A stretch of 54,941 bases of DNA from Chitinispirillaceae bacterium. Lineage in GTDB: Bacteria > Fibrobacterota > Chitinivibrionia > Chitinivibrionales > Chitinispirillaceae. Under the pieces are notes generated by a model. The model worked only from the letters and a program-made list of their open reading frames with translations, was not told the origin of the DNA and did not search any database. The stretch is taken from the NCBI GenBank assembly GCA_016927235.1, contig JAFGNB010000078.1, positions 1-54,941 on the forward strand. Direction: 5' to 3'. The position numbers were made by a program, and so were the translations under genes. Every line of letters begins with the position of its first letter. Positions within the stretch are counted from its first letter, which is position 1. Below are positions 24,420 through 50,597 of this stretch, in pieces.

Positions 24420-24422
24420 TCC

Positions 24423-28912: not shown

Positions 28913-30067
28913 CTACTTATTGACGCGTAATTGCACCACCGGTTTTTTAGCGGGAATGACCATAGGTATTGCCGCCAGCTTTTCCCGGCCGCCGCGCTTC
29001 GCGCCGTGCAGAGTGAAAAAATCGCCGGGCCGGAGAAATGCCGGAGCATACTGAGGGGCGCTGCCGATAAAGAACTTGTTCCGCCGTTCCGCGGAAACGG
29101 GCGTGCCGAACGGCCCGGCCCCGGCCATGACGATACGTTTTACGTCCGCGCCGACGTCGAGGCGGTAGGAATAGGGAATCGCGAATACGCTCCCCTGCCC
29201 GACGTCCCTCCTTCCGGTGACGTTTACATACTGGTTATCGTCGTCGATCCGGATCTGGGCGGAAGAGACGCTGTCGAAAAAGATATGCGGATTATTGACG
29301 TTTTCAAAATAATTGCTTTCCACCACGACTTCGGCGTCGACGCCGGGACCGATGCAGTAGTTGTTGCCCGCGGCGCTGTAATAGTTGTTGAAAATATGGA
29401 TCTTCCCGAACCGCGCCCGCGGCATTCGTTCAGTAATATTGTCGGCCCACCAGTTGTGGTGAATGGTGATGCGCTCTTTTCCCGCATCCTCGCCGCCCGC
29501 ATCGTCGCTGTGGCTGATGAGCATGGCGAACCGGTGGTCGAGCGTGTTGTCCGGGTAATGGAACTTGTTCCAGGAGATGGTGATGTTGTCGCACCCGTGG
29601 GTCATGTCGACGAGGCCGTCGAGTTTGTTCCGCTTGTCGGAAATATCGCAGTGGTCGATCCAGATATGATTGGCGCCCTCCTCCATGCTGAAAATATCCA
29701 TCTGTCCGCCGTTTACCGCCGAGATAATCAGGTTTCTGATGATCACGTTGGCGGCGCTTTCGATATAAAAGGTCGCCTCCAGCTCCGCGCCCCGCCCGGC
29801 GCCTTCAATGGTCAAGTCCTTCACTTCGGACATGCTTATCCGCTGGACCGCTATTTTACCCTGTACCCTGATGACCCGTTTTCCCTCTTTGGCAATATTC
29901 GAGGTGAGCTCGGCGGGAGTGGATACCGTGACGACCTCGCCGCCCGCCCCGCCGGTGACGGCGCCGCCAACCGTTGCCCAGCCGATACATTGATCTTGGG
30001 CGGGAGCCGGGGCGAATGATAGAAGCGATAAGAGCGTAAATACGCACGCCGGCACCACTATTCGCAC
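28913..30067 (-). CDS. Pectate lyase, PL1 family
   Basis: A 384-residue secreted lyase that cuts polygalacturonate by calcium-dependent beta-elimination. After a signal peptide (VFTLLSLLSFAPAPAQ) the right-handed beta-helix shows IWIDHCDIS, LVDMTHGCDNITISWNKF, ITIHHNWWADNITERMPRARFGKIHIFNNYY, split over successive coils. These contain the calcium-site aspartates and the conserved ERxPRxRxG arginines. The GTG at 30067 is chosen because AGGAG precedes it; an ATG at 30112 lies inside the upstream gene. It lies 13 bases after its PL1 paralogue. Confidence 0.92.
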   Translation of the reverse strand: MRIVVPACVFTLLSLLSFAPAPAQDQCIGWATVGGAVTGGAGGEVVTVSTPAELTSNIAKEGKRVIRVQGKIAVQRISMSEVKDLTIEGAGRGAELEATFYIESAANVIIRNLIISAVNGGQMDIFSMEEGANHIWIDHCDISDKRNKLDGLVDMTHGCDNITISWNKFHYPDNTLDHRFAMLISHSDDAGGEDAGKERITIHHNWWADNITERMPRARFGKIHIFNNYYSAAGNNYCIGPGVDAEVVVESNYFENVNNPHIFFDSVSSAQIRIDDDNQYVNVTGRRDVGQGSVFAIPYSYRLDVGADVKRIVMAGAGPFGTPVSAERRNKFFIGSAPQYAPAFLRPGDFFTLHGAKRGGREKLAAIPMVIPAKKPVVQLRVNK

Positions 30068-30080
30068 CCCCCTACCACTC

Positions 30081-31286
30081 CTATTTTCCACAACGGAGCC
30101 CGATCCGCACATCCGTACGGTTCTTGACGATAAAGATTCCAGGCGATTGTCCGGCGCCCGGAACCGTCCCTGCTATTTTTGCCCCCCTGCAATCATAGAA
30201 TGTGCGGGCCGTATGGGTGGAAACGCCGAAGTACACGCCCGCCTCCTCCTTTCCCGGCACCGTAATACCCGACCTGTCGAGCTTTCCCACCCCTGACCAT
30301 GCCTCGACGGTCTCCTTTACCTCATCAGAAGCCTGGAGGACATCGCTGTAAGAATAGGACGGCGTGAACGTGCAGGTTGATGTCGCGGGCTGGTTGCCCT
30401 TGCAGTCGATAAAAACGTTGTCCCTGACGTCCCAGCATCCGGTTGTTTTGCTGTAGTAGGCGCCGATCGGCCCCCATTGGACCTTGGTATCTGAATCAAC
30501 TTCACCCGAACCGACATTTTCAAACACATTGCCCTCAACGCGGATTTTCGCATTCATGCGGGAATTCACGGCACTGTGATCGATGTTGGTGAAGTAATTA
30601 TTGAACACATGTCCTGTCCCGCCGCGGTAACTCGGAACCCGCTCCCATAATTTGTAAAAATGGTTGTGATGGAACGTTGCCTTACGGTCCGAATCGTCGC
30701 TGTCAGAACTGCCCACCAGCATGGCTTTGAACGAATCGTGGATCTTGTTCCATGAAATGGTGATGTTGGCGCTCGATTTTGTCATGTCGATGAGTCCGTC
30801 GTACCAGTCGACATCACCGCCATCGATATCGCCCTCGGTATCGACCTTGCCGTCGCCGTTGAGGTCTCCGATCGCATTGTAGATATCGCAGTGGTCGATC
30901 CAGATGTTCTTTCCGCCGGAAATGGAAATAACATCCTTTCCCTTGCCGGAGTGGTGGATTGTGAGATTGCGAATGATGATGTTGCTTCCGTCGGAAATGG
31001 AGAGTGTGGTTCCGGTCAACTCGCCGGAGCTGCCGACGCCGATGATGGTTTTATTTGACTTGATGCTCGTGGAAGCGCTGTTTATTTTGCCGGTAACCTG
31101 GATGATACATTTTTCCGAGCTTTGACAATTGCTCTTGAAAGCGGAGGCGTTGTTCACCGATACGGTCTTCCCCCCCTGCCCTCCGGTTACCCCGGCTGCA
31201 AAACCGACTAAGGAAAAGTCGGGTGCAGCAGATGTCTGGAAAGAAATCAGCAGGCAGGTTATAATAATAGCAAAATACTTTTTCAT
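30081..31286 (-). CDS. Pectate lyase, PL1 family, with an EF-hand-like insert
   Basis: A 401-residue secreted PL1 lyase with a signal peptide ending FQTSAAP. Family blocks are IWIDHCDIY, LIDMTKSSANITISWNKI and HHNHFYKLWERVPSYRGG. The last differs from the usual ERxPRxRxG: the Pro-Arg is Pro-Ser. Residues 138-160 insert DLNGDGKVD and further Asp/Gly residues between the IDHCD strand and the DGLIDMT strand, like an EF-hand or dockerin calcium loop. A strong AAGGAGA site precedes the ATG. It heads the pair of PL1 genes. Confidence 0.92.
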   Translation of the reverse strand: MKKYFAIIITCLLISFQTSAAPDFSLVGFAAGVTGGQGGKTVSVNNASAFKSNCQSSEKCIIQVTGKINSASTSIKSNKTIIGVGSSGELTGTTLSISDGSNIIIRNLTIHHSGKGKDVISISGGKNIWIDHCDIYNAIGDLNGDGKVDTEGDIDGGDVDWYDGLIDMTKSSANITISWNKIHDSFKAMLVGSSDSDDSDRKATFHHNHFYKLWERVPSYRGGTGHVFNNYFTNIDHSAVNSRMNAKIRVEGNVFENVGSGEVDSDTKVQWGPIGAYYSKTTGCWDVRDNVFIDCKGNQPATSTCTFTPSYSYSDVLQASDEVKETVEAWSGVGKLDRSGITVPGKEEAGVYFGVSTHTARTFYDCRGAKIAGTVPGAGQSPGIFIVKNRTDVRIGLRCGK

Positions 31287-31730
31287 TGCATCTCCTTATA
31301 AGACGTAACTTTGATTAAGCGCTAAAATAACAATTTCTTATACATTTAAAAGACGGTATATGAAATAGAGTGAACATTTATTAACTAATTAATTATCTTT
31401 TTTTCCATAATATAGCCATTTATTACGCTTTTTGCCAAAAAAGTATCAATTATTTATTTTTCTCCAGTGAACAAAAAACCCAACAAAGTCTCAAGTTTTT
31501 TACTTCGATGACGTACTGGTGAACAGTTGTTGAAAAATTTCCCTGCCAAAAAGGCGTCCTATACGCAACCTTTTTCGCACACAGCGCGCTCGGCAATTCA
31601 GCGGGCGGCGGCACTGTCCTTTGCGGCCGCATCGTCTACATCATAGAGCGTGAATAGATTTACATGCCAGCAACAATAAAACAACTTTTCAACCGGTCGC
31701 ACGGTGCATGTCCGGGCCGAAATACCGCAA
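31287..31730. other. Intergenic region before the pectate lyase pair
   Basis: The part next to 31286 is strongly AT-rich and very likely holds the pectate lyase promoter, but I could not fix its boxes with confidence. The rest shows no coding signal. No terminator hairpin was recognised. Confidence 0.5.
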
Positions 31731-34700
31731 CTACTGCGTAAAACCGATCTTCATGGTTCGAATGAAACCTCGGTTGGTGCCGTCGTCGACCCTGATAAAT
31801 GCAAGATACGTCCCGGACCCCACATACCTTCCCTTACGGTTCTCCCCTCTCCATACCATTCTGAATCCGTTGTTGAAAGGAGTAAAATCCGCTTGTTTCA
31901 CCACCGTACCGACCGGATCGTAAATCGTAATCGTCGCCCTGACCCGTGTCTCGTCTACCGGCGCTGTCGGTATCAATACAATTGCAGTCCCCACGCCGGT
32001 GCCGAACGTTTGCCCCGTTATCGGTGTGTTACGCGTAAAGGGGTTCGATGAAATCCTGATGTTCCATTGCGCCTGCGGCCAGTCGACCTGGAGAAGTACC
32101 CTGCGGTTGAGCGGGTTTAATTGGGCGACACCGCCGCTGTCGCTTACCCCGGCAGCGGGATCGATCCAGATCGTATCTCCTGCGGAGGCAAACAGCAGCG
32201 AAGGGGTGATTGAGAGCACCTTGAAGCGGTACGAATACGACGCAGAACCCTCTTCGTCAAGATACTCAAGCGAAAAACTGTACCGCTGGCCGTCTTTCTT
32301 TGCCGACAAAAGAAACGGCGACCGGCCCAACCGAGCTACCCCTTCCGAAAAGGTCACTATCAGGATATCATTGTCGCGCACGTCCGCCGCGGTGAGCGAC
32401 CCGGGAAGCAACATGGCGGATACGATCACCGGCGCAGCGCTGTCGGCTGCGGTGGAGTTGCGATAGATGCCCGGGAATGCGGGATACCCGACCGTCACAT
32501 GCATTGGTCCCCCGGTGCTGATAGCATTGAGTCGTGCGATGGAGTCGCCCACGGGTATCATGTATATCGAATCGCTCACCCGTGTACACCGTGAGAACGG
32601 TATCCTGAAGGAACTCAGGTTCCGCCGTACACTGACCGTATCGATCTCCGACTGCTCAACCTTACGCATGAACTTTACCATTAGCTGGTCGATGATGCCG
32701 TCGGCGTTAACGTCGAGGTACCACGCTCCGGCGATCGAGGCTGCGCCCGGCCTGAACCCTATGACCACCGACCGGTTCAGATCATGGGGCATGTTTTTTT
32801 TGCGGTCCGAGAGAGTACCGCCGTCGCTTTCCGGAATCAAACGGAGACGATCGCCGACATGCACCCGCAGATCCCTTTCTGACGGGGCAACCTGCACGGT
32901 AAACGTCGAATCATTGATCGGGGCAAGTATCTGGATGACCGTCAGCGCCGTCGTATCGGCAGTGCCCTGTGGTATCAGCAGAAGCTGGCGTCCGATAATG
33001 GTCCCCGTAACGATCGGCTCGGATAACGTGATAAAAAGAACATCATAGTCCGATCCGTCGCTTTCCAGCACATCGGCGGCAATAATCGCCGGTGAAACGC
33101 CGTCGGTAAAGGCCCGGGAATTGTTTTTCACCTCGCCGCTGACGGTCATGAAGAGGGCGGCCGTACCCTCCGGCCGGCCGTCGATCCCCATATTTTCAGG
33201 CAGGGGTACGTCGAGCTGTGTCCCCCGGAGGGTGACGCTCGCGACAGGGACGGTGATTGTTAATCCGCGGTAATCGATCCGCACCGAGTCGAGCCGCTGG
33301 TCCGTCTGGAAGGTATCCGAAAGCGTCAGGTAAAGCATATCCGGCACCAGATCCGCGTTGTTATCGCACATAACACCCGAAACGATAATCGGATAGGGAG
33401 GCTGTACATAGGCGATTACCAGCACCGAATCCGGCTTGAGTCCCGGCGCGTGGTTGACAACGAGCCAGGTGTTTCCTTCGTTTACTTTAGTTAATATGCA
33501 GCGCGACGGCGACGCGGCCGAGCGCGCCACCGTTACCACCGTGGAATCGCGAACGGTCCACACCGGGTCGGTTGCGTGATTCAGATAGGTCTGGTCCGCA
33601 TCCCTGATTACCGCATACGCCTCGGCACTGCTGTCGAGCATGCCGATGACGACGGAATCCACCACCGCATCTTTTTCAAGGTCCATGGGAATCGTATCTA
33701 CCAGAATATCAAGGTGGTCGGGCGGCAGCGCCGTAACAGAGAAGGGAATCGTACCCCCCTGCGAGTGATCTCTGCTCAGATGATAACGAATAAGATAATC
33801 GCCAGGAGGCAGACCGGTCATCGTCGAGGTATCAATAATAACGGTAGAGTTGTTGACAATGGTAATGCCGCCGTATGAGGTGCCGATAGGAAGCCCGGTG
33901 GGCGGTTCAGGCGGAAACGGCGGGCCCTCAATGTAGAACTCGACGATCGCCTTCTCCGTATCGATCACGGTCTCACCCAGGTCGCACGAAAGGTTGTTCT
34001 TCGAAATTTTTTCATACATGTCGTACTGTTTCGTCGTGGGAGATACGACGGTAACCGTGGTAAAAAGGCTCGACGTGGTCCTGAGATTGATGGAAGTGAC
34101 CATGCGGAAGTTGGAGCCGCAACAGTTTCGCTCGACGAAAAACCCCTTGAAGCTGTAAGTATTCCCCACCGTGAGACCGAGCGTATCGAGGTTGACCGCG
34201 CCTTCGCAGGGGTTGTGAATGCCGCCGATATCCACGACAAGACGGTTGTTGATGAATACCCACACGTCATCGTCGCCCCTGAAATAGAACGTCTGCCCCT
34301 TCGTGTAATCAAACTGCGCGGAGAGTTCCATGGTGAAATAGTAATTGTGTGGATTCCCGTTATTGTCCTGCCCGCCGCCGTAACGCGGGTTGGGGATCGT
34401 CCCCTCTGGATCGAGATAGCGGAAACTGTCGGCAGGGAAAAAATAGTTCGTATCGTATTCAAAAAGGCCCTCATCATTCTTTGTCAATTTCAGGTTATAG
34501 CACATCGCGTTGGTATACTGGCCCGTTACCATTTCCGTCGTGAACCAGTTGAACCGGTCGACGGGACAGGTACTGTTGCCGAGAACCGGTTTACCGTTCG
34601 CGTCAAGCTGAGAGCGCACCATGCCGGAAGTGATCTCGTTGTAGCTTTGATCCGCACCGCATCCCCTTTTTGTTTCGCCGACGCCGACATCGGGGTGCGT

Positions 34701-35486
34701 CGTGTCCCAGTCGCGCAGGGTGGTGGCGAGAAGCAGGGTCCTGTTACAGGGTAACGATTGCCCGGGATACGACGAATGTACTGTTGCGGCACCATCAGGA
34801 TGGGGTGTTGGAAGTATCCACGCCGTATCGCTGGTTTCAAAAACCGTTGAGAGATCAATGAATGGACCATCGCCTAAACCTATGCCTGAAAACAGCGTGC
34901 TGTCGAGCGAATTCATGAATTTGACCTGAGCAGAGTCTGGAATTCCATAGTAAGGATATTTGAACCAGCCGCAACGGGTGATACTCGTGTCCATGCGCAT
35001 CCGCGGCGCCCCAAAACCCTCGATAATGATCTGTGGAGTGCCAATCGGCCATGGACTCAAGAAGTAAATGTACTTGCAGCCTAGAGGAGGCTTGTCGGTA
35101 ATGATCATCCGCGCAGTCAATTCTGGAATTACGATCCAAATATCTTTCGTGGAAGAAGAAAACCGTGAAAATATAGTATCAAGGCGAAAATCAAGCTGAT
35201 ACTCAGCCCAGCCTTGCCATGTCTCCGGACCGCAAAAGGTAGCCAATCGAGAGACAAACAATTCTTTTCTTGGAAAAATATAAAAAAACCATCCCCCGCC
35301 TTCAGATGAAATCGTCTTTCCCGGTGACCAATTCAAACCGGCATCAGGTTCACCCTGCAGGAGCAAGGAATCCCTATGCCCCGCACAGGTATCGTCGCGC
35401 CATGGATTCAATATATGAACGGTTACCTGGGCGTATATGCCCTGGGATAGCACCAGTGATAGTATCAATCCATACAGCCGTGCCAT
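31731..35486 (-). CDS. Secreted fibro-slime domain protein
   Basis: A 1251-residue exported protein with a signal peptide ending SQGIYAQ. Residues about 250-470 form a fibro-slime/PA14-like domain, shown by WFTTEMVTGQY, FYFRGDDDVWVFINNRLVVD and IGGIHN. Fibro-slime proteins of Fibrobacter are linked to adhesion to plant fibre. Downstream are several bacterial Ig-like units with repeated D-x-N-x-D-x-x-x-D loops (DNNADLVPD, DVNADGIID) and a 'DVLFITLSE' strand. The C-terminus (VRATITIYDPVGTVV, WRGENRKGRYVGSGTYLAFIRV) is a FlgD-like or sorting-like module. It lies among pectin-degrading enzymes, so it may bind the cell to pectin or plant cell wall. Confidence 0.88.
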   Translation of the reverse strand: MARLYGLILSLVLSQGIYAQVTVHILNPWRDDTCAGHRDSLLLQGEPDAGLNWSPGKTISSEGGGWFFYIFPRKELFVSRLATFCGPETWQGWAEYQLDFRLDTIFSRFSSSTKDIWIVIPELTARMIITDKPPLGCKYIYFLSPWPIGTPQIIIEGFGAPRMRMDTSITRCGWFKYPYYGIPDSAQVKFMNSLDSTLFSGIGLGDGPFIDLSTVFETSDTAWILPTPHPDGAATVHSSYPGQSLPCNRTLLLATTLRDWDTTHPDVGVGETKRGCGADQSYNEITSGMVRSQLDANGKPVLGNSTCPVDRFNWFTTEMVTGQYTNAMCYNLKLTKNDEGLFEYDTNYFFPADSFRYLDPEGTIPNPRYGGGQDNNGNPHNYYFTMELSAQFDYTKGQTFYFRGDDDVWVFINNRLVVDIGGIHNPCEGAVNLDTLGLTVGNTYSFKGFFVERNCCGSNFRMVTSINLRTTSSLFTTVTVVSPTTKQYDMYEKISKNNLSCDLGETVIDTEKAIVEFYIEGPPFPPEPPTGLPIGTSYGGITIVNNSTVIIDTSTMTGLPPGDYLIRYHLSRDHSQGGTIPFSVTALPPDHLDILVDTIPMDLEKDAVVDSVVIGMLDSSAEAYAVIRDADQTYLNHATDPVWTVRDSTVVTVARSAASPSRCILTKVNEGNTWLVVNHAPGLKPDSVLVIAYVQPPYPIIVSGVMCDNNADLVPDMLYLTLSDTFQTDQRLDSVRIDYRGLTITVPVASVTLRGTQLDVPLPENMGIDGRPEGTAALFMTVSGEVKNNSRAFTDGVSPAIIAADVLESDGSDYDVLFITLSEPIVTGTIIGRQLLLIPQGTADTTALTVIQILAPINDSTFTVQVAPSERDLRVHVGDRLRLIPESDGGTLSDRKKNMPHDLNRSVVIGFRPGAASIAGAWYLDVNADGIIDQLMVKFMRKVEQSEIDTVSVRRNLSSFRIPFSRCTRVSDSIYMIPVGDSIARLNAISTGGPMHVTVGYPAFPGIYRNSTAADSAAPVIVSAMLLPGSLTAADVRDNDILIVTFSEGVARLGRSPFLLSAKKDGQRYSFSLEYLDEEGSASYSYRFKVLSITPSLLFASAGDTIWIDPAAGVSDSGGVAQLNPLNRRVLLQVDWPQAQWNIRISSNPFTRNTPITGQTFGTGVGTAIVLIPTAPVDETRVRATITIYDPVGTVVKQADFTPFNNGFRMVWRGENRKGRYVGSGTYLAFIRVDDGTNRGFIRTMKIGFTQ

Positions 35487-35666
35487 TACATACTCCTTGC
35501 AACCACAGAAAAACCAGACTCTATTTATAATTTATCATTAAATCTACTTTTTGCCGTTTAAAATTTTTCGGCAAAGCGGGATGAAGTCACCCGGAGGATT
35601 TCGATGAGGCTTGAATCAGCGGTAGAAATCAAATCCCTTTCAAGCGAATAGCCGCTCCCGCTACCT

Positions 35667-37163
35667 TTAGCGCAAATGCGACCGGGGGAGAATCCCTATT
35701 TTTCCATAAAAAACGGCGCCGTTCAGATCCGCCCGGTAGTAGTAGATCCCCTGATCCAAAACGGGAATTCGCCATGAAACGGCCGTTTGACCTTGCACCG
35801 CTCTGTTTCTCCTGCGTACAACAAACCTGCCGCCGGCATCATACAGTGCCATGACTATTTTGCCGGAACCGCAGCAGGGATCGAAGCGCGCCGTAAGCCG
35901 GTTTGTCGCCTGGTTATGAAATACCGCGACCTTTTTAACGCGGGAGTAAAGCTCGATACCTTTCGGTGAAACAGCTACCTTGCCCGAATCGAGAAGCCGG
36001 GCTGTGTGTGATCTGACAATGGCATAAATTGAATTGGTATCCACCCTCGGCCGCCAGTCTAATTCCGGAAGGGGCGGAAAGGTATCGCGGCCGCATTTCA
36101 GGAAAAAGCGCGCGATGTCGACCATATTGGGCGTTGTCGAAACCTCAAACCGCCGCAGGATCGTATTGGTTTCGAAGGTGTCGGCTGCCTCGCCCAGCGG
36201 AAACGCACTTGCGGAAAATATGGAATCCAGTGTATAGCTTTTCGCCTCCTGATCGGTAAGCTGCTTTCCAAAGTCAACCCTGCCGGAGGTGCTGCTCCCC
36301 GGACCGGTGCATTTATATTCGCGGTAAAAACAGGTCTCCTCCCTGCCGTTCCACGCCTTCCATCCCGCCTTGTTGACCGCCGAGCTTTCCCAACAGTTTA
36401 AAAGAACGGTTCGGGCATAGGCGAACCAGGGTCTTCCAAGGTAAAATGAAGTAACGGTCGAAGGGTTGCTGATTTTACAATTCATGAAAACGAAGCCGAA
36501 TTTATAATTCTGCGAGGTTGCCGCAGCGCTCATGTATCCGTCGGTCCTGATAGTATTGATGAGGCAGCTGTCGAACAGCACGATGCCGAAGCCGAACAGA
36601 TAATCAACGGCGCCCTCCATAACGCAGTCTTTGAAATAATTGCGCGTCCGGATGTTGTTGAAATAGGTGTCCTGCCACCCTTTAATACGGCAGTGCAGAA
36701 ACACCTGGCAATCGCCGTTGGCATGGAGTGCCACCGCCTGCGCGCTGGTGGACGTGTTCGAGATCGTCAAATTTACGGCTTCGAAAAAATCGGCATCCAC
36801 CCGCATGGAATGGGAGGTGAAGGTGTTCATGGCGATGGTTTCAAGCGAGGCGTCGTTATAGGTAATTATTGAGCTGTCGACGTGTTCTCCGACAAGAGTG
36901 ATATGAGTTTTTTTCCAGGGAACGATCAGCTTTTCCCGGTAGGTCCCTTTTTTCAGGAAGATCACTTTCCGTGCGGGATTACTGTCGGGAATCGCCGCAA
37001 TGGCATCCTGCACCTTTGTATAATCCCCCGAACCATCGGCGGCGACGACGATGTCGATCTTTTCCGCAAGGGCGGACTGGAGCGTCTGGGCGAAGCCCGG
37101 AAAAAAATTCAACACGATTGCCGTTCCCGCCACCGGCAGCGGAATGATTCTGAACTTTTTCAC
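35667..37163 (-). CDS. Pectin methylesterase (CE8) with C-terminal sorting-like tail
   Basis: A 498-residue secreted enzyme removing methyl groups from homogalacturonan. After the signal peptide the beta-helix shows all five CE8 blocks: GTYREK, QAVALHANGD, WQDTYF, DYLFG (catalytic Asp) and LGRPW. The last ~90 residues are a separate module ending with MALYDAGGRF and DQGIYYYRADL, like type IX sorting tails. The start is a GTG at 37163 overlapping the GH2 stop by four bases (GTGA) with GAGAGGGA upstream, so the two are co-translated. De-esterification would expose substrate for the PL1 lyases. Confidence 0.92.
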   Translation of the reverse strand: MKKFRIIPLPVAGTAIVLNFFPGFAQTLQSALAEKIDIVVAADGSGDYTKVQDAIAAIPDSNPARKVIFLKKGTYREKLIVPWKKTHITLVGEHVDSSIITYNDASLETIAMNTFTSHSMRVDADFFEAVNLTISNTSTSAQAVALHANGDCQVFLHCRIKGWQDTYFNNIRTRNYFKDCVMEGAVDYLFGFGIVLFDSCLINTIRTDGYMSAAATSQNYKFGFVFMNCKISNPSTVTSFYLGRPWFAYARTVLLNCWESSAVNKAGWKAWNGREETCFYREYKCTGPGSSTSGRVDFGKQLTDQEAKSYTLDSIFSASAFPLGEAADTFETNTILRRFEVSTTPNMVDIARFFLKCGRDTFPPLPELDWRPRVDTNSIYAIVRSHTARLLDSGKVAVSPKGIELYSRVKKVAVFHNQATNRLTARFDPCCGSGKIVMALYDAGGRFVVRRRNRAVQGQTAVSWRIPVLDQGIYYYRADLNGAVFYGKIGILPRSHLR

Positions 37164-39823: not shown

Positions 39824-39963
39824 GAGTCTCCCCTTTAAAACCTGAAACGACATACCCTGTTATTGACGAATAAATAAAGCACTCCCGGGGTTGTTCTTGC
39901 AGCACCCGCGTGACGGCGATTTCCCTCCCGCGGCAGGGCGGGGTTGTCAGTCATGCATCATGA

Positions 39964-41151
39964 CTACCTGCGTGAATCGACAATGACAATTCCCTGCGGT
40001 ATCCTGTACCGGCCGGCTGGCGGTCCGGACGTAATTTCCCTACCGGTTATGGTAAAGATCCTGTCGCCCGAACGGCTGATGTCCTCGCAGGAAAGGGTAA
40101 GTGAGATTCGGATATTCGGTACATAGTGCGGCGCCATTGTTGTTACCATCCCTGTTACACCGACCGTAGGAGCTTTGGTAACCGTCCCGGTGAACGACGG
40201 CCATCCGTCGTCAAAGTAAAGGTGTCGAATTTGAAGGATTGAATTGCATGCGTAATAATGGTTGACACAAAAAACGGTATCATTATCGATTAATATCCCG
40301 TTATGTCCGGGTCCCTTGCGGACATCGTCGCCGGCATCGATGATTTCTCCGCCGCCATCAAGCATATCGGTACCCTCTTTATCCACATAAGGACCTTTAA
40401 TGTTGGTGGCGCGGCCGACGACGATTTTATACGTGCTGTTGCATCCTTGGCAGCACTTGTCCCACGAAACGAACAGATAATAATATCCCCATTTGCACAG
40501 ATAGGGAGCCTCGATACCCGAGCGGTGGTTAGCTATCGAAATATAATCCGGCCTTGTTTCCGGCGGTTTTCCCGTAGCGGGGTCGCACTCCACGAGCTTG
40601 ATGCCGGACCAGTACGAACCGAAGGTGAGCCACACTTTTCCGTCATCGTCCTGAAAAATTGCCGGATCAATGCAGTTGTAGTTGTCGGAGCTGCTTGATT
40701 TAACCACCACGCCCTGGTCGGTCCATGTCGGATTGGTCAGGGTCGGCGAAGTGGCCAGACCGATGGCCGAAGTGTTTTTACTGAAGACGGAGACGGAATA
40801 GTACAGCCAATATTTATTATCCCTGAACATGATGTCAGGCGCCCAGAAATCCGAGCCGCTGTTGCCCGGGACCTCCTCCTTGACCCAACCGGGAGCACGA
40901 AGTCCCGAACTGGCACTTCTCCAGGTAATCCGGTCGCTTGATGTCTTGCTTCCGACATTATATCCCGTAAAATATATCCGATAGGTCGAAGTCGCTTCCT
41001 CCCTGATCATGACCGGATCGTGGACTCCCAGATCGCCCTTGAGCGGGTTGACATAGCCGCTGGCGGAAAGAAAAGCCGCAAGAACGAAAATCGCCAATAT
41101 ACCTGGGCAATACACCGAACTATTCGGAAATAACCATATATTTACTCGCAT
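39964..41151 (-). CDS. GH43-family arabinanase-like enzyme
   Basis: A 395-residue secreted five-bladed beta-propeller hydrolase. The catalytic triad is visible: Asp in GVHDPVMI, Asp in NCIDPAIF and Glu in GIEAPYL. The GPGHNGIL block supplies the histidine that binds the central ion in endo-1,5-alpha-L-arabinanases. It would trim arabinan side chains of pectin. The C-terminus (IFTITGREI then QGIVIVDSRR) looks like a shortened sorting tail. AAAGGAGA precedes the ATG. Confidence 0.9.
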   Translation of the reverse strand: MRVNIWLFPNSSVYCPGILAIFVLAAFLSASGYVNPLKGDLGVHDPVMIREEATSTYRIYFTGYNVGSKTSSDRITWRSASSGLRAPGWVKEEVPGNSGSDFWAPDIMFRDNKYWLYYSVSVFSKNTSAIGLATSPTLTNPTWTDQGVVVKSSSSDNYNCIDPAIFQDDDGKVWLTFGSYWSGIKLVECDPATGKPPETRPDYISIANHRSGIEAPYLCKWGYYYLFVSWDKCCQGCNSTYKIVVGRATNIKGPYVDKEGTDMLDGGGEIIDAGDDVRKGPGHNGILIDNDTVFCVNHYYACNSILQIRHLYFDDGWPSFTGTVTKAPTVGVTGMVTTMAPHYVPNIRISLTLSCEDISRSGDRIFTITGREITSGPPAGRYRIPQGIVIVDSRR

Positions 41152-41421
41152 GCTTTATCTCCTTTGACGGCCCTGCTCACGGTTGGCCTATAATAATAAT
41201 ATAAAGCCATTTTTTCCTCAATGAAATTAATTTTCCTTCAGCACAATGCTACGTTAGCCCTTCATCCAGAGCATGGTCGAAAAATAAACGTTCACGGCTC
41301 CCTTCGGCCAAAAATCCTTTCGTCGATAACCGGTTGCGCGATGAAGAAGACGGTGCATTTTTATTTTTTGTAAAATCACTCTTGCCGTTGACGGCAGGCG
41401 CCTTTGTCAACCTTTTGTCGG

Positions 41422-43500
41422 CTATCTTCGCGCCGCCCTTGTTTTATCGCTTATTCTCACTATATAGACGCCGCGGGCTATTTTGCATTCGTTCAATGAG
41501 ACGGCCTTTTTCCGCGTAATGATATCCCTTAGATGTTTCCCCGACAGATCGTAAACCGATAGCTGCCTGGGCGCGGTCGGCGCCTTGCCGGGCAGCACGA
41601 ACATCCTGTCTCCGTATACTTTTATCGGCGCGCCGGACATTTGCACCGGTTGAATCTCAGCTATCGACCGTAAGGAAGTACCTGAGCCGTCGGGGTACAC
41701 GATGTCGGGTTTCTTCTGCGGCAGTGTCATGCCGTCTCCCAGGAAAAAACCGGTATGCGGCGGCTGGTTATAGGCCACATTCTGCCAGGCGATTGATACC
41801 CGGTAGTGAGGATCGTGCATGAGCGTATAGAAACGGTGGTTGGTGGGTGTGGTTGTCGTATAGATACGCAGCGTGCCGCCGCAGCTGAACATCACCTCTT
41901 CGCGCCAGTCGCCGAACAGGTCGGCGGAGAGGCAGGGATTGGACTTGGTACCGTTGATCGCGGAACATCCCGACGCGCTGAGCAGCGAGCCGCCGCCGAA
42001 TTTGCTGACCGTTGTTCCATCCAGAAGTTCGCGAAGCAGGTCGCCGTCCCACCACAGAAGAAAGTTGATTTGACTCGGCCCGCTGATCGAGGTGCCTTTA
42101 CAATTGTAAGCTCCGACACCCGTCGACGCCCAGCACTCCATGCCGGGGTGCGACGCGGTAATGTCGGCGGCGCAGGCGCGGCCGACGTCATCGGTCCCTT
42201 TCTTTGACCACAGTACACCCCCGTTCGACTGAGACGGGTCTCGCAGGTCCGCACATGCGCCGCCTTCATGGCAGCACCAGTACTCAAGCCCGGGCCGCTC
42301 AGGATCGATATCGGTAAGGTGGGCAGCATCTCCGTGACCGACACGGGAACTCCCTAAAAGGGTTCCATCATCATCGATAGTACAGGCCCCGTACACAATC
42401 TCCTGCTTGCCGTCATCGTCGACATCGCCGACGCTCAGGTTATGGTTACCCTGGCCGGCTCCGGCTGAATTCCCGCCCGCATTCGAATCGAAAAACCAGC
42501 GTTCGGTAAGCTTTTCGTTCCGCCAGTCGAGTGCCCAGAGGCAGGTGCGCGTATAGTAGCCGCGGCACATCACCACGCTCGGACGATGTCCGTCGAGGTA
42601 GGCGACACAGGCGAGAAACCGGTCGACTCGGTTGCCATAGGAATCGCCCCAGCTCGATACGGTGCCGCGCGGCGGCTTATAGTCGACAGTGGCGAGCTCC
42701 TTACCGGTTCTGCCGCTGAAAATGGTAAAATATTCGGGTCCGCTTAAAATATATCCGTCAGAATTGCGATAATCGGCCGCATGGTCAGCGTTGGCCGCCG
42801 GACCGAGTTTCAGGTAACTGCCGCCTGCATCTTTGCTGCCCGGCGCAGTCTTGCATGCTATTTCGGCACTGCCATCGCCGTCAAGGTCATACACCATGAA
42901 CTGGGTGTAATGGGCGCCTTCGCGGATGTTGATCCCCAGATCGATCCGCCACATCCTCGTTCCGTCAAGTTTGTAAGCGGTAAGCTTGGTTTGGCCGGTC
43001 CTTCCGGAATTGGAATTATCCTGCGGGCTGTTCTCTTCCTTCAGAACGATTTCGTACTGACCGTCACCGTCGAGGTCGCCGCAGCTCGCGTCACCCGCTC
43101 GATACCCTGAGGCATTCTGGAGTGGAATCGAGATATAATTGTTCGAAAGGGTATATTCGGCGCTGCTTGCTGCCTGTTCCTCACCGCCGACAATCGCCCG
43201 CACTGAATAATCGCCCGTGCTGTTGCCATTATCCTGATAACAGGTAGCATCGGTGATCGGTGTCGAGTTGAGCTTCGTCGTTCCCTTATAAATATTAAAA
43301 GCAATGTCCGTCCCCTGGTCAGTGCCGAACAGCCTCCAGCTCAGGAAATACCCGCTGCCTGACTTGACGGCGACAAGCCCGCGTGTGAGTTTCTCCACTT
43401 CAATCTGCCCGTGCGCAACATCGGCTTTTCCCATGATCAGAGCAAATGAACAGGTAAAAATCACTATTAATTTTACACGGTAATTGCCTTTTACTTTCAC
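41422..43500 (-). CDS. Rhamnogalacturonan lyase (PL11) with sorting-like tail
   Basis: A 692-residue secreted lyase that cleaves the backbone of rhamnogalacturonan I. The beta-propeller shows the calcium-binding blocks DLDGDGQYEIVLKEE and YDLDGDGSAEIACKTAPGS, GNRVDRFLACVAYLDG, GQGNHNLSVGDVDDDGKQEI and ADLFGDWREEV, all characteristic of the YesW/YesX family. The C-terminus has LSVYDLSGKHLRDI and ARGVYIVRIS, a type IX-like tail. The start is a GTG at 43500 with GGGAGG upstream. It defines the island as RG-I specific. Confidence 0.94.
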   Translation of the reverse strand: MKVKGNYRVKLIVIFTCSFALIMGKADVAHGQIEVEKLTRGLVAVKSGSGYFLSWRLFGTDQGTDIAFNIYKGTTKLNSTPITDATCYQDNGNSTGDYSVRAIVGGEEQAASSAEYTLSNNYISIPLQNASGYRAGDASCGDLDGDGQYEIVLKEENSPQDNSNSGRTGQTKLTAYKLDGTRMWRIDLGINIREGAHYTQFMVYDLDGDGSAEIACKTAPGSKDAGGSYLKLGPAANADHAADYRNSDGYILSGPEYFTIFSGRTGKELATVDYKPPRGTVSSWGDSYGNRVDRFLACVAYLDGHRPSVVMCRGYYTRTCLWALDWRNEKLTERWFFDSNAGGNSAGAGQGNHNLSVGDVDDDGKQEIVYGACTIDDDGTLLGSSRVGHGDAAHLTDIDPERPGLEYWCCHEGGACADLRDPSQSNGGVLWSKKGTDDVGRACAADITASHPGMECWASTGVGAYNCKGTSISGPSQINFLLWWDGDLLRELLDGTTVSKFGGGSLLSASGCSAINGTKSNPCLSADLFGDWREEVMFSCGGTLRIYTTTTPTNHRFYTLMHDPHYRVSIAWQNVAYNQPPHTGFFLGDGMTLPQKKPDIVYPDGSGTSLRSIAEIQPVQMSGAPIKVYGDRMFVLPGKAPTAPRQLSVYDLSGKHLRDIITRKKAVSLNECKIARGVYIVRISDKTRAARR

Positions 43501-43747
43501 ACGACCTCCCGCAGGTTAATCGATTAATTGCCCAACCGGACCTTTTATTATCTATTCGGCATTACCATAAATAGTATTGGACGCGATTTAGACACCGGGT
43601 TTTCAATATTAATGCCGGTTCCCCTGACAAATTCTAAATAATATAGCTTGAACAGCAACATTGCGTGTAAAAAATCTGGAGTACAAAACGCCTATATTAT
43701 TCCTGACCTGTAAGAACCGGTCGAGGTTACCGTCGCGGTAGTGGCTT

Positions 43748-45331
43748 TCAATGTATGCAGAATCGCACCTTAACGCAGGGAAGATTATTGAACCGTGTCT
43801 GCAAAAGATAGATGCCGGGCGGCAGGGTTGCCAGCTGCCGCCAGACCAGCGACCCTTCGTGCCGGTTAAGATCCAGCGTCCCGGCAGCGACCGACCTTCC
43901 ACTGATCGCGTAAACCGTAAAGACAGCCCTGCCCTTTCGAAGCGTCCGGTAATGGATGCGATTCCCCCGTATATTGATCGAAAGCTCGACGGTGTTCATT
44001 TCCACGATGGTGTTCATTCCCAGTGCACGACTGGTTGAACTCCCCGGCCTTAAGGCGCTGACACTCGGTAATGTAACCAGATAATCGACCGGATCCGGCA
44101 CTGAAGGATTAAAAACCGGCAGTTCGTCCGTCAGAAACGGATTCAAGGAGTTGTCGAATTCATAAATCCCCTTTGCCACACAGCGTGCGAGTTCAAAGCC
44201 GCCGTACTCCTTGAAATGGGATACGTCCTGATAGACCGCGTTTTTCTTTGAACCGAGAGCTTTAACGAGCGTAATGGTCATCATATTGAGGTCGATAAGA
44301 GGGACATTGAGTGAGGCAGCCGTTTTGCGCATGGTTTCTGCAAGTCCGCCTATCGAAGTCAGGGGATCGGTTTCGCCGTCGCGCGCCGTAGGCGACACGA
44401 ATATCGGGATGGCGTTTTTGGCACAAATTTGATCGCGAAAGGTTTTAAGATTGGTTGGGTATGCAGTTATGCCTGCGTCGGATTTCTGGTCGTTATGCCC
44501 GAATTCCACAAAAACATAATCACCTGTCTTTGCATCGCTCATGATTTTAGCAAGACGTTTCATAGCAAGAAAGTCCCCAGAACTCAGCCCCGATTCCGCA
44601 TAGTTGGCGACACACACTCCCGGTTTGAAAAAGCGGGTAATCATCTGTCCCCAGGAACACCAAGGTGTGTCAAGCTGATCGACCACGGTCGAATTACCAC
44701 ATAGATATATTGTGATCGCATTGTCGGCCTGAGAATGCTCGATACCGCACACACATGGTTTGGGTCCGCCAAACCGCAGCGTCACCTTATCGTCCCAGGT
44801 ATAATAACTCTGCTCGCGCTCTTTGATACTCATCGTAACCTTCCCGTCGAGGCTTTTAACTTCACGCCGGTCGATGGTAATGGTTTTACTTGCAAACCTG
44901 CCCGAGGCGGTCGCTATGCGGTCGAAAAGCAAACGCCGGTTTTCGGCCGTCACCGTGGTAATTGAGGTTGCGCTCGCATCACCTACTATAACCGTCAGGT
45001 CGTATGCACCCTGGGGAACCTTGACGGAAAACATGAATTCCGTCGTGCCGGTGCAGTAATCTCCGCGTAAAAAATCCTCTCCTCCCCTGTCGACCGCAGT
45101 AACGGTCGCGCCCGGCTCAAATCCGTACCCCTGCGCCGATGAATAAATTGTATTTGGCGTTACGTTGGTGTACCCCGTTGCCGTGGCGCCCGAACCGAAA
45201 TCGTATTTGTAGTTTTGCGCATTAACCGTAACGGCAAACACCGTTACCCCAAACAGCAGTACTGTTGAAGGAAAAGGAGTGGAATGTAATTTACAGTAAT
45301 ACCGGTTTGCGGTATTTCCCCCGGTAATCAT
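43748..45331 (-). CDS. Rhamnogalacturonan acetylesterase-like (CE12) with N-terminal carbohydrate-binding-type domain
   Basis: A 527-residue secreted SGNH hydrolase. Residues about 40-190 form a malectin/galactose-binding-type domain (YKYDFGSGATATGY, VPQGAYDLTVIVGD). The CE12 domain follows: block I LCGNSTVV (GNS in place of GDS, common in this subgroup), NYAESGLSS, FVEFGHNDQK and the catalytic Asp/His in DVSHFKEYGG. The tail has FTVYAISGRSVAAG and PPGIYLLQTRF. It removes acetyl groups from RG-I and should assist the PL11 lyase downstream on the same strand. A GGGGGAG site precedes the ATG. Confidence 0.92.
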   Translation of the reverse strand: MITGGNTANRYYCKLHSTPFPSTVLLFGVTVFAVTVNAQNYKYDFGSGATATGYTNVTPNTIYSSAQGYGFEPGATVTAVDRGGEDFLRGDYCTGTTEFMFSVKVPQGAYDLTVIVGDASATSITTVTAENRRLLFDRIATASGRFASKTITIDRREVKSLDGKVTMSIKEREQSYYTWDDKVTLRFGGPKPCVCGIEHSQADNAITIYLCGNSTVVDQLDTPWCSWGQMITRFFKPGVCVANYAESGLSSGDFLAMKRLAKIMSDAKTGDYVFVEFGHNDQKSDAGITAYPTNLKTFRDQICAKNAIPIFVSPTARDGETDPLTSIGGLAETMRKTAASLNVPLIDLNMMTITLVKALGSKKNAVYQDVSHFKEYGGFELARCVAKGIYEFDNSLNPFLTDELPVFNPSVPDPVDYLVTLPSVSALRPGSSTSRALGMNTIVEMNTVELSINIRGNRIHYRTLRKGRAVFTVYAISGRSVAAGTLDLNRHEGSLVWRQLATLPPGIYLLQTRFNNLPCVKVRFCIH

Positions 45332-45498
45332 ACGTCTCCCCCCAGATGAAATTTTTTTATTAATATAAATATAACCTAAAATAGTAAGAAATATCGGGAA
45401 ATCAAGCCTGGTTTTCTTTGTACACCTTCTTCAGGCTCGAGAGACCACTTCGATCCTCGAAAAGCCATCATCGCCGAGGTAGCCTTTCAAACTTAAAT

Positions 45499-45528
45499 TT
45501 GACTATAAATCCGTAAGATGCCTATATT
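45499..45528 (+). promoter_or_regulatory. Sigma70-type promoter for the GH10 gene
   Basis: TTGACT (45499-45504) and TATATT (45523-45528) are separated by 18 bases. The GH10 start codon is about 110 bases downstream. The gap is shared with the divergent CE12 gene. Confidence 0.6.
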
Positions 45529-45639
45529 ATTGAGTGAAACGAACGCCGGAGAGTGCCGTGAACACGAGGGGAGTGCAAAGTGGCGTGAAGGTTGATTTGC
45601 AGCGCGTCGTTTTTTTATTTCATTTTTCCCGGGGGGAGT

Positions 45640-47175
45640 ATGCGTCACCACCATATTTCATCATTTTTTGCAATGGGTACGACAGTCATCGCGTGCGGTG
45701 TTTTTACGCCATGCTGTGCTGAGGATAAAGCGGGCGGTTATGATTACAGCCATCGTATGAGGGATTGCAACATAACGGTTAAAATCAACGGCCAGGGTGT
45801 TTCCGGCGCTGAAATATCCGTCAAACAGATTCGCAACCATTTCGGTTTCGGTGCATCGATCAACAGGTGGGCATTCGATACCATAGGCGAAGCGTACGGC
45901 CAGGCGTTTCTCAAGTACTTTGATATCGGCACCCCTGAAAACGAGATGAAGTGGGAATATGTTTTCAAGCATGACACGACCCAAAAAACCGAACCAGCCT
46001 ATGAAAGAGCCGATTATCTGGTCGATTTTCTTCAGAAAAACGATATTGCCATCCGTGGGCATAACCTGTTCTGGAATGAGCACACCGGCTGGATTCCCAG
46101 GTGGATCCTTTATACCGACCTTACGCAAGCCCAGTTCAAGCAGGAAATGCAGGAAAGAATTGAAAGCGCCATGACCCATTTCAATGGAAAAGTCGTTCAA
46201 TGGGACATCATCAACGAGATCGTTCACGGCAGGGGCGGCAGCACTCCCGCACCAACAATGCTGGATTCGGCGTCCGGTGATCCCAATATTTTCAAGTGGA
46301 TACTGCAGGAGGCCCGCACAATCGACACAACGTCAAAATTCGTCATCAACGATTACAATCTTATTGAAAGATACAGCGTTGTCGACAAGTTTATCGCCAA
46401 GGTGAAACCCCTGGCGGATTACTACGATATTGTCGGTTGTGAAGGTCATTTCGGCGATTATCTGGAAAAAAGCGACTATCTGTCAAAGATTGATAATCTG
46501 GCGAACCAACTCAACAAGCCTATCTGGCTTACGGAAGTCGATTTCACCATCACCTCGAATCAGGCGGCCAAGGTGGAAGAACTAATGAGAACCTGTTTTG
46601 CGCATAAAAAGATTGAAGGATTGATCTTCTGGGTCTGGTGCAAACGGAGAATGTGGCGTGAAAATTGTACCAGCTATCTTGTCGATTCGACACTTCAGGA
46701 AAGCGCCGTCGGGAAAAAATGGCGTGAAGTCCGGGAAGAGTGGAAAACGAAAGCGAACGGCGTCACCAATGCGTCGGGGAACTACAGCTTCAAAGGCTAC
46801 CAGGGGAAATACATCGCGACCATTAATAACGGCGGTACTACGATTATCGACACGTTTTACCTCGAACCCGGGTCGGGTGCCAAAGCGATCGATCTACCCA
46901 AAGGCGGTGCTGCCATTACACGCGGCGGCAGTCAACACGGGGATAGAGTACCGGTGCGGGTGAACGGCCGGACGATCTACCTGCTGCCGCCGATTGAGGG
47001 GAGGCAGCTCTATCTTTCAACCTTCTCGATCTGCGGAAAGCTGTTTTCGAAAACACCGTTGTTCGTCAATAACGGCACCTGCGTCGTTTCCGACATTCCC
47101 TCAGGATGCCATGTACTCCATATCGGTACCGTCGAACGAACGTTCTATACCGCAATGGAGGTGCAGCTTCGCTGA
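45640..47175 (+). CDS. GH10 endo-xylanase with C-terminal sorting-like tail
   Basis: A 511-residue secreted enzyme. The signal peptide runs to about CCAED. A short N-terminal beta domain (ITVKINGQGVSGAEISV) leads into the GH10 TIM barrel: YFDIGTPENEMKWEYV, GHNLFWNEH, the acid/base Glu in WDIINEIVH and the nucleophile in WLTEVDF. A small domain SGNYSFKGYQGKYI follows, then the tail with LYLSTFSICGKLF and PSGCHVLHIG. It hydrolyses xylan main chains and is the only enzyme here clearly aimed at hemicellulose. The ATG at 45640 follows a G-rich site; an ATG at 45673 is possible. Confidence 0.92.
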   Translation: MRHHHISSFFAMGTTVIACGVFTPCCAEDKAGGYDYSHRMRDCNITVKINGQGVSGAEISVKQIRNHFGFGASINRWAFDTIGEAYGQAFLKYFDIGTPENEMKWEYVFKHDTTQKTEPAYERADYLVDFLQKNDIAIRGHNLFWNEHTGWIPRWILYTDLTQAQFKQEMQERIESAMTHFNGKVVQWDIINEIVHGRGGSTPAPTMLDSASGDPNIFKWILQEARTIDTTSKFVINDYNLIERYSVVDKFIAKVKPLADYYDIVGCEGHFGDYLEKSDYLSKIDNLANQLNKPIWLTEVDFTITSNQAAKVEELMRTCFAHKKIEGLIFWVWCKRRMWRENCTSYLVDSTLQESAVGKKWREVREEWKTKANGVTNASGNYSFKGYQGKYIATINNGGTTIIDTFYLEPGSGAKAIDLPKGGAAITRGGSQHGDRVPVRVNGRTIYLLPPIEGRQLYLSTFSICGKLFSKTPLFVNNGTCVVSDIPSGCHVLHIGTVERTFYTAMEVQLR

Positions 47176-47205
47176 GCGGGTATTGTCATTATTTATCATT
47201 AGGCA

Positions 47206-47234
47206 GGGGCGTTCAGTTGAACAACGCCTCTTTT
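47206..47234 (+). terminator. Intrinsic terminator after the GH10 gene
   Basis: GGGGCGTT (47206-47213) pairs with AACGCCTC (47223-47230), one G-U pair, followed by four T bases. It sits between convergent genes, and its T-tract ends at the stop codon of the GH43 gene. Confidence 0.7.
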
Positions 47235-48454
47235 CACTTTATCTCAATGTAAACGCCAAACGGCAGGCGGCCGGTTGCCGGTCCGTCCACACGCTTTCCG
47301 TCAATTGAATAAAACCGGCCGGCGGATCTCACTGCTGTGCCGTCACCGAAAAGCCTTTTTGCAAACGGCGACCGGCACTGCCCAGTTGGGGGCGCATTTA
47401 GGCCTGCCCGGCTGATCGCCGACTTTTCACCGGTGATAATGGTGCCTTCTGACGGATCCATGGTCAGCCATCCCTCCGGGTCAAGATATACCGGCTTGAT
47501 GTTGAGAAGCGCCGCTCCGTCAGGTGCGGTATAGGCATGGTAGCTCATAAAAAGCGTATCCCTGTCCCAGAAAAATCCGGAGCACCCCATTCCGGCGTGC
47601 AGTACCGAGCCGTCCGAGTCGTAATCACGGCTGAGAAGACCGGTGGAACTGCCGGTTTTAAAACTTCTTCCTTCCCGGTTTGTATAGGGGCCCACAACCG
47701 ACGTTGCCCTTCCCTGCACGATCTGGTAGGTACTCTCCATGGCTTTGCAGCAGATGCCGGTTGATACGGTGCAGTAATAATAATCATTTAAATGAAGCAG
47801 AAAGGAGGCCTCGCCGAGATGGTCGGTGATTTTCACCGGATGTACCGTCTCGGTCAACGGTTTTCCGGTCGCCCGGTTCAGTTCGATCAGTCGTATCCCT
47901 CCCTGAAATGAGCCGAAAATCAGATACCATTTTCCATCATCGTCAAAAAAAGTTGCCGGATCGATCACATTTACCATTGGCCCGCCATCCGCCGCCTGAA
48001 GGGAATCGATAACAACTCCCTGATCCGCCCAACGGTAATCCGAATCGCTTTGATCAAGCGTGGTATTGGTCGCCACACCAATGGCGGAATTGAACTCCAT
48101 CCAGGCGGAAACCGAATAAAAAAAGTAATACACGCCGTCCATGAGCGCACATTCCGGAGCCCATATATCACCCCCGTGCACGGCCCACCACGACTGCTTC
48201 CCCATGCGGCTTATCGGATTGTCGCCCCGGCTCCAGGTGATCCGGTCTTTGGAGATCAATCCGCCGCCGCCGGTCCCGAACGTATAATAGGTGCCACCCT
48301 GCATAAGCAGGGAGGAGGGGTCGTGTATGGTTAATGACCCCTTGAGCTGATTAGTAGGGTCTCTGCTTGCAGCAGACATAAGGGCGGCAATGCCGAAAGT
48401 AATTATGATGCAAACCGCATAAACCCAGACCCGCGGCATAGTGATTGAGCGCAC
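47234..48454 (-). CDS. GH43-family arabinanase-like enzyme with altered ion-site residue
   Basis: A 406-residue secreted beta-propeller hydrolase. Catalytic residues are kept: Asp in TIHDPSSLL, Asp in NVIDPATFF and Glu in LGEASFLL. The block expected as GHN reads GMGCSGFF, so the ion-binding His is Cys. The C-terminus has FYSIDGKRVDGP and PFGVYIEIK, a sorting-like tail. The GTG at 48454 is chosen because GGAAGG lies seven bases upstream and a good signal peptide follows. It is divergent from the CHAP gene. It may act on arabinan or a related side chain. Confidence 0.86.
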   Translation of the reverse strand: MRSITMPRVWVYAVCIIITFGIAALMSAASRDPTNQLKGSLTIHDPSSLLMQGGTYYTFGTGGGGLISKDRITWSRGDNPISRMGKQSWWAVHGGDIWAPECALMDGVYYFFYSVSAWMEFNSAIGVATNTTLDQSDSDYRWADQGVVIDSLQAADGGPMVNVIDPATFFDDDGKWYLIFGSFQGGIRLIELNRATGKPLTETVHPVKITDHLGEASFLLHLNDYYYCTVSTGICCKAMESTYQIVQGRATSVVGPYTNREGRSFKTGSSTGLLSRDYDSDGSVLHAGMGCSGFFWDRDTLFMSYHAYTAPDGAALLNIKPVYLDPEGWLTMDPSEGTIITGEKSAISRAGLNAPPTGQCRSPFAKRLFGDGTAVRSAGRFYSIDGKRVDGPATGRLPFGVYIEIK

Positions 48455-48559
48455 AATGCATCCTTCCCAATAACTAAAAATTTTATAGTATATTGTATAA
48501 TTATAATAATCCCCATTTAATGGATGGAATAAATAAATTTTTTGGAGGCAAGGAAAGGT

Positions 48560-49817: not shown

Positions 49818-50597
49818 ATGTATTTTGGTGGCATGCATCCCGGCAACTCTTCACTTAAAATAGACCGTTATAAAAAAATAATCGCCACGGTGAATTTGAA
49901 CAAGCGGGTATCGCTTTACCAGCTTGAAAAACTGCTTGCGGTCTCGCGCATCACCGTTCAGCGCGACCTTGTAGAGCTCGAAAAACGAAAGCTGCTCCGC
50001 AGGTTTCACGGCGGCGCAATGTCGATCGAATATTCCGAAGATCTCTACGACCACGACCTGAAAAAATCCGTCAATGTCGCAGCAAAGAAGATAATAGCCG
50101 CAAAAGCCGCTCAGCTCATCAAGGAAGATTCTTATATCGGTCTCGATTCAAGTTCCACGGTCTATTATCTTTCCGAGACCATTTTTGCGGGTAATGTCCT
50201 GGTGCTTACCTGCTGTATCGACTCATTCAAAAACCTCATAAACAGGGATGATATCCGGGTGGTGCTGGCAGGGGGCCGTATGAATAAGAAAAGCCACACC
50301 CTTTCAGGCCCGGAAATAGTCGACATGATCAGGAAATTCCGCTTCGATATGATCTTCATTTCAGCTGAATCGTACATACCCGAAATCGGTTTCTTCGATC
50401 CTCACGCCGAAGAGGTACAGGTCAAACGGGCGCTTATCGAATCGGCGAACCGGGCCGTCATGCTCATCGACGCCTCAAAGGTAGACGCGAATGCAAACGG
50501 TATTAAGGTGTGCGATATATCCGAAATCGACTTTATCGTCACCGATAAGCCGGAAGAATCGGGGCTGAAAAAAAGTTTTAACAACAAAATTCTATAG
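49818..50597 (+). CDS. DeoR/GlpR-family transcriptional regulator
   Basis: 259 residues. The N-terminal winged helix (KRVSLYQLEKLLAVSRITVQRDLVELEKRKLLRRFHGGA) is typical of DeoR proteins. The C-terminal sugar-phosphate-sensing domain follows, with YIGLDSSSTVYYL, VLTCCIDSF, VVLAGG and MLIDASKVDANA. It probably represses the dehydrogenase/kinase genes downstream and is released by a phosphorylated sugar. Another ATG at 49833 is possible. It starts after a strong terminator, so it opens a new unit. Confidence 0.92.
   Translation: MYFGGMHPGNSSLKIDRYKKIIATVNLNKRVSLYQLEKLLAVSRITVQRDLVELEKRKLLRRFHGGAMSIEYSEDLYDHDLKKSVNVAAKKIIAAKAAQLIKEDSYIGLDSSSTVYYLSETIFAGNVLVLTCCIDSFKNLINRDDIRVVLAGGRMNKKSHTLSGPEIVDMIRKFRFDMIFISAESYIPEIGFFDPHAEEVQVKRALIESANRAVMLIDASKVDANANGIKVCDISEIDFIVTDKPEESGLKKSFNNKIL

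Follow-up and report, generated by a model that had tools for sequence, protein, structure and literature searches.

How a bacterium profits from a dense cluster of pectin-degrading enzymes that has no sugar importer at its side is the question raised by contig JAFGNB010000078.1 of a Chitinispirillaceae bacterium. The window analyzed here is this whole contig of 54,941 nucleotides (C177 in our numbering), one of the 396 contigs of a draft genome that comprises 4,153,719 bases and is 86.75% complete. The genome, that of an uncultured organism, appears to belong to the Fibrobacterota and, within them, to a family other than that of the fiber-digesting Fibrobacter. Between window positions 28913 and 48454 lies an island of ten genes in 19.5 kb, nine of which encode carbohydrate-active enzymes (CAZymes), eight of them for pectin or pectin side chains and one a xylanase. 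We consider it probable (about 0.6) that the island provides exported enzymes that dismantle wall pectin at or near the cell surface, mainly to reach cellulose, in the style of Fibrobacter.

Enzymes of the island and the transporters around it

Family calls were made by Pfam and NCBIfam profile searches with curated cut-offs, and the genome was searched family by family. An earlier note, made from the sequence alone, had described ten pectin- and rhamnogalacturonan-I (RG-I)-directed genes in 20 kb. All ten genes were found where that note had placed them, eight of them consecutive on the minus strand, and every family call passed the profile search, each protein scoring above the curated cut-off of its named family (Table 1). 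The GH10 xylanase is not a pectin enzyme. In alignments of the nine enzymes to solved structures the catalytic domains were covered and the active-site motifs, read by eye, were kept, the alignment being weak for the CE12-type esterase; which residues are catalytic we take from general knowledge of the families. The esterase is a GDSL enzyme with a YXIM/agarase-type galactose-binding domain in Pfam. Both GH43 proteins came closest to the endo-arabinanase AbnA in NCBIfam, below the equivalog cut-off, with arabinanase-TS as the nearest solved structure, and YesW and YesX were among the nearest structures for the PL11 lyase.

Together these families suggest a scheme in which the CE8 enzyme would strip methyl esters and the CE12-type enzyme acetyl esters, the two PL1 lyases would cleave homogalacturonan and the PL11 lyase the RG-I backbone. 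The two GH43 arabinanases and the GH2 beta-galactosidase would shorten side chains, the GH10 enzyme would cleave xylan, and the fibro-slime protein may aid attachment. The main benefit of such joint action would lie in opening the wall to reach cellulose and not in feeding on pectin sugars. The set had previously been credited with de-esterification, deacetylation, backbone cleavage and side-chain trimming. The first three are borne out by the families present, and the last has to be narrowed to arabinan and beta-galactosyl residues. Pfam detected no GH28, GH51, GH53, GH78/106 or GH88/105 in the island. The RG-I degradation set is thus incomplete, with PL11, CE12, GH43 and GH2 present and the unsaturated uronyl hydrolase not; GH88/105 and GH51 occur elsewhere in the genome.

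Among the open reading frames (ORFs) between 28913 and 48454, Pfam revealed no SusC, SusD or TonB receptor and no ABC, MFS or TRAP sugar transporter, in agreement with the earlier note, and no SusC/SusD pair linked to CAZyme genes was present among the window ORFs examined in the same way. The search of the flanking DNA for uptake genes led only to an ABC transporter at 23385-27179, one gene to the left of the island. We rejected this system as a linked sugar transporter: it is PotABCD-like, scores above the cut-off of TIGR01187, has PotD and PotC as best matches, and is collinear in a congener as part of the conserved backbone. An automatic caller of CAZyme clusters, which would meet a DeoR-family gene at the right and this polyamine-type transporter at the left, could wrongly count the latter as the island's own. 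The same backbone carries, at 9433-13218, an S-adenosylmethionine decarboxylase, two spermidine-synthase-family proteins and an ornithine/arginine-type decarboxylase.

We judge that the clustering of nine CAZyme genes in 19.5 kb, with its run of eight genes on one strand, is not random placement, because the genome's PL1 genes, about a dozen, are spread over its 4.15 Mb. In operon prediction the terminator count equaled that of shuffled sequence and the promoter excess was unspecific, and we therefore make no claim of an operon.

Table 1. Genes of the island and of its right flank, with window positions and supporting matches
Feature	Position	Strand	Evidence and remarks
PL1 pectate lyase (PL1a)	28913..30112	-	PF00544 110 bits, cut-off 24; structures 7bbv/7xks, pectate lyases; export-type N-terminus, no sorting tail
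PL1 pectate lyase (PL1b)	30081..31286	-	PF00544 117 bits, cut-off 24; structures 3vmv/7xks; 32 bp overlap with PL1a
Fibro-slime domain protein, 1251 aa, putative attachment protein	31731..35486	-	Fibro_Slime TIGR02148 126 bits, cut-off 45; PA14
CE8 pectin methylesterase	35667..37163	-	PF01095 220 bits, cut-off 27; structure 1gq8 (plant pectin methylesterase); start overlaps GH2 end by 4 bp
GH2, nearest solved relatives beta-galactosidases	37160..39853	-	PF02836/PF02837; structure 5euv; T9SS sorting-tail model TIGR04183 27.4 bits, cut-off 23
GH43a, endo-arabinanase-like	39964..41151	-	PF04616 138 bits, cut-off 32.2; AbnA model 297 bits, below cut-off 480; structure 1wl7
PL11 rhamnogalacturonan lyase, T9SS-type tail	41422..43500	-	PF21348 (RGL11_C) 685 bits, cut-off 27, and RGI_lyase; structures 4cag, 2z8r YesW
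CE12-type rhamnogalacturonan acetylesterase-like GDSL esterase, T9SS-type tail	43748..45331	-	PF21254 and PF13472; PaeY model partial match; YxiM and RGAE structures
GH10 xylanase, divergent from main gene run	45592..47175	+	PF00331 148 bits, cut-off 22.1; structure 7d88
GH43b, arabinanase-like	47234..48454	-	PF04616 105 bits, cut-off 32.2; structure 1wl7; ORF open to 48706, likely start about 48439-48454
Export-type protein, CHAP/amidase-like C-terminal half by eye	48542..49756	+	Hydrophobic N-terminus; association with island uncertain
DeoR-family regulator, candidate regulator of right flank	49818..50597	+	PF00455, PF08220; GlpR/AgaR/fucose-activator-like models
Rhamnulokinase-family gene, C-terminal piece, cut by contig end	54624..54941	-	39% identity to E. 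coli RhaB from residue 379

Export and type IX secretion

The prediction that all ten proteins are secreted held up: a strong signal-peptide-like hydrophobic segment stands at each of the ten N-termini, provided that GH43b starts near 48439-48454 and that GH10 is read from a downstream start. Evidence for the machinery of a type IX secretion system (T9SS) consists of SprA (TIGR04189, 307 bits versus a cut-off of 200) and PorU (NF033707, 492 bits versus 420), and the sorting-tail model gave 52 matches in the genome at E up to 0.001, some of them below its cut-off. In the island the GH2 tail exceeded the cut-off of this model (Table 1). The PL11 tail came near it with 21.2 bits, just below in the NCBIfam search of the island and above in the genome search. 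The CE12 tail reached E 2.7e-8 on a profile built from the genome's own tails; as the GH2 and PL11 tails had seeded this profile, only the CE12 score on it is independent. Equivalent tails of Fibrobacter succinogenes enzymes have been proposed as T9SS signals (PMC6851124). The enzymes of the island would act at or near the cell surface.

Contig C264 (L127/L128) of the same genome is likewise rich in proteins with T9SS tails, among them arylsulfotransferase-like, FGE-sulfatase, CotH, GH31, GH5, GH2-like and subtilase proteins.

Uptake and sugar catabolism elsewhere in the genome

If the island has no importer, the sugars it releases might still enter the cell by a route encoded elsewhere. Such a nutritional pectin locus with unlinked uptake, in which SusC/SusD or another TonB receptor and a TRAP transporter would act together with GH88/105 trimming, UxaC and a FucI/RhaB-like route, is a possible but less likely explanation. 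The genome holds eleven proteins with a TonB plug domain and one SusC/SusD pair. UxaC (NF002794, above cut-off) is encoded on C205 beside a TRAP large permease; there are three clear GH88/105 matches and one fragment, and FucI and a RhaB-like kinase stand at the end of C257.

Other parts of a pectin-sugar pathway failed to appear. KduI and RhaA were not found in the genome by family models that matched control genomes (the E. coli RhaA protein as query had matched no genome, and the search was repeated with the family model). AraA gave no match to the E. coli protein in this genome and a match in G017 and in two Bacteroidota, and KDPG aldolase gave none to the E. coli protein here and a match in several other genomes. 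A GH67 alpha-glucuronidase is encoded close to UxaC, a setting suited to glucuronoxylan rather than to pectin.

The only SusD match, next to its SusC, is on contig C85 (1-6927, L125) in the order GH9 cellulase, SusC, SusD, with SusC at 767 bits on TIGR04056 (cut-off 368). The pair is thus neither beside the island nor beside pectinases. In the contrast with Bacteroidota drawn by the earlier note, the island's lack of SusC/SusD stands, and it does not extend to the organism, which has this one pair. The same order recurs in the congener G002 (C280, L158, 49-15883) at 74%, 84% and 85% identity, where genes for a PKD protein, DUF3450, ExbB, an ExbB/ExbD fusion and GH3 come next. In the second congener, G001, SusD is cut by the contig end and is 90% identical. 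G024 and G026, from other families of the order, have SusD proteins of 49% and 43% identity, and in G024 (C148, L160, 6199-14080) DUF3450 and ExbB also follow SusD. Given relatives at 84-90% in both congeners and at 43-49% in two genomes of other families, contamination is an unlikely source of the pair. Overall, a SusD match was present in 9 of 168 Fibrobacterota genomes, and a limited literature search, a weak negative, found no report of SusC/SusD in the phylum.

The failure to find KduI, RhaA and AraA, together with a sole SusC/SusD pair that follows GH9 and is joined by GH3 in the congener locus, points to wall opening as the main role of the island. Three observations pull the other way. 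UxaC with its TRAP permease, the GH88/105 enzymes, and FucI with the RhaB-like kinase suggest that some wall sugars are used. The missing catabolic genes may be assembly gaps, and their absence is suggestive only, because the genome is incomplete (about 87%). Finally, the remaining seven island proteins showed no statistically supported T9SS tail with either the sorting-tail model or the own-tail profile.

A division of labor can be proposed tentatively, in which importer-less, T9SS-exported pectin islands would open the wall and the lone SusC/SusD locus would import released cellodextrins. For the Fibrobacterota a TonB-dependent route has been proposed and its receptor not identified (PMC6851124). 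If the proposal is true, uptake of this type would belong natively to the way in which some Fibrobacterota use cellulose, and SusC/SusD could supply the kind of outer-membrane receptor that has been noted as missing in F. succinogenes. The GH9-linked pair offers a testable candidate for cellodextrin uptake in the phylum and indicates that in bacteria of this kind SusC/SusD can stand next to a cellulase and not next to pectinases. We regard it as a more surprising lead than the island, which is an ordinary kind of gene cluster for this group.

Origin of the island and its left junction

For comparison we used the congeners G001 and G002 and further relatives including G012, G024 and G026. At window positions 7054-28808, the genes from a histidine kinase through pyruvate kinase are collinear with those of G002 contig C223. 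After pyruvate kinase G002 continues with a CAP-domain protein, a protein with an FGE-sulfatase domain, a PEGA protein and a CBM4/9 protein, and the island is absent there. On this comparison of gene order the island is lineage-specific; a conserved island was rejected, since the relatives examined arrange the genes around PL11 differently.

The congeners' relatives of the island genes are scattered over separate contigs (in the ranges that follow, the lower figure is near full-length identity and the higher that of the conserved core). GH10 has a relative of 64-78% identity in G001:C224, and GH43a has relatives of 73-84% in G002:C213 and of 68-77% on C236 of the same genome. The corresponding values are 53-69% for CE12 (G002:C4), 47-57% for GH2 (G001:C198 and G002:C13) and 52-55% for PL1a (G001:C106). 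PL11 relatives reach 59% in G001:C34 and up to 68% in G012. Since pyruvate kinase itself is 69-81% identical to its congener counterpart, at least GH10 and GH43a appear to have been inherited vertically and gathered here at a different site. Other pectin and arabinan genes of the genome include a GH43-GH51-GH2 group on C236, besides the PL1 genes mentioned above.

With these values at hand, a Bacteroidota pectin polysaccharide utilization locus (PUL) gained by horizontal transfer, with subsequent loss of SusC and SusD, is scarcely credible as the origin of the island. Bacteroidota PL11 loci often do combine PL11, CE12-like esterases and GH2. Yet the island genes tested have relatives of good identity in the same Fibrobacterota genus or family (for PL11, up to 68% in G012, compared with no more than 61% in the collection scan), a fibro-slime protein is a typical Fibrobacter trait, and no SusC or SusD remnant was seen.

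A false left edge is very improbable too. C177 might be a chimera in which backbone DNA that ends with pyruvate kinase is fused to unrelated DNA, either from elsewhere in this genome or from a different one, and the fragmentation of the assembly, the different genes that follow pyruvate kinase in the congener and a GC content that varies along the contig would all fit such a misjoin. However, close relatives of island genes exist in the same genome and genus, as the GH43a and GH10 values show, and repeats of at least 25 nt are absent across this edge and at both edges of the island, the sole direct repeat lying inside the two PL1 genes. A misjoin at this position would moreover leave intact the island itself.

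Right flank

To the right of the island, a protein without Pfam or NCBIfam match (48542-49756) precedes the DeoR regulator, which is followed by a short-chain dehydrogenase, a PHP-domain protein, a zinc alcohol dehydrogenase and the cut rhamnulokinase-family gene. The short-chain dehydrogenase (50730-52001) is extended at its N-terminus by about 150 residues without a match to any family. Contig C257 (L163, 11494-19103) ends with the N-terminal portion of such a kinase gene; before it come L-fucose isomerase (TIGR01089, 1013 bits) and a GH29 fucosidase with a T9SS-type tail, one of two GH29 on the contig. The two kinase halves are compatible in orientation and do not overlap, and about 60 residues would stay unassembled between them. 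It is likely that C257 adjoins the right end of the window, which would place the fucose isomerase, the kinase and GH29 just beyond it. In seven relatives, searched at E up to 1e-12, nothing matched the PHP, alcohol dehydrogenase or FucI genes.

Comparison with known systems

The island resembles the RG-I/pectin PULs of Bacteroidota, such as those in Prolixibacteraceae and Paludibacter genomes, in combining PL11, CE12, GH2, GH43, PL1 and CE8 (PMC11653725), and differs from them in having no SusC/SusD, linked importer, GH28, GH78 or GH105. As in a Bacteroidota-type PUL, CAZymes for one glycan class are clustered; the linked SusC/SusD pair of such loci is absent, and the DeoR-family gene at the right edge (49818-50597) is a candidate for a linked regulator. 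A likeness to Bacillus subtilis is seen in the YesW/YesX PL11 lyases and YxiM-type esterases, which are the closest solved structures of the island's PL11 and CE12 proteins. Unlike the island, the B. subtilis genes presumably have their own importer and an unsaturated rhamnogalacturonyl hydrolase alongside.

The nearest parallel in habit is F. succinogenes S85, which hydrolyzes pectin, xylans and many other polysaccharides and grows only on cellulose products; for this species, breakdown of pectin and hemicellulose with uptake genes unlinked or lacking altogether has already been described (PMC3079729). The shared features are the phylum, exported CAZymes whose basic C-terminal tails are proposed T9SS signals, hydrolysis without linked uptake genes, and fibro-slime proteins beside CAZyme genes (PMC3079729, PMC6851124). 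In contrast to S85, the organism studied here is from another family, gathers its enzymes in one compact pectin/RG-I cluster, and has in addition UxaC, a fucose isomerase and a SusC/SusD pair. With the island, the habit known from Fibrobacter, in which polymers other than cellulose are taken apart by enzymes whose genes have no uptake genes beside them, would reach another family of the phylum, here as a compact cluster for pectin and RG-I that is specific to its lineage.

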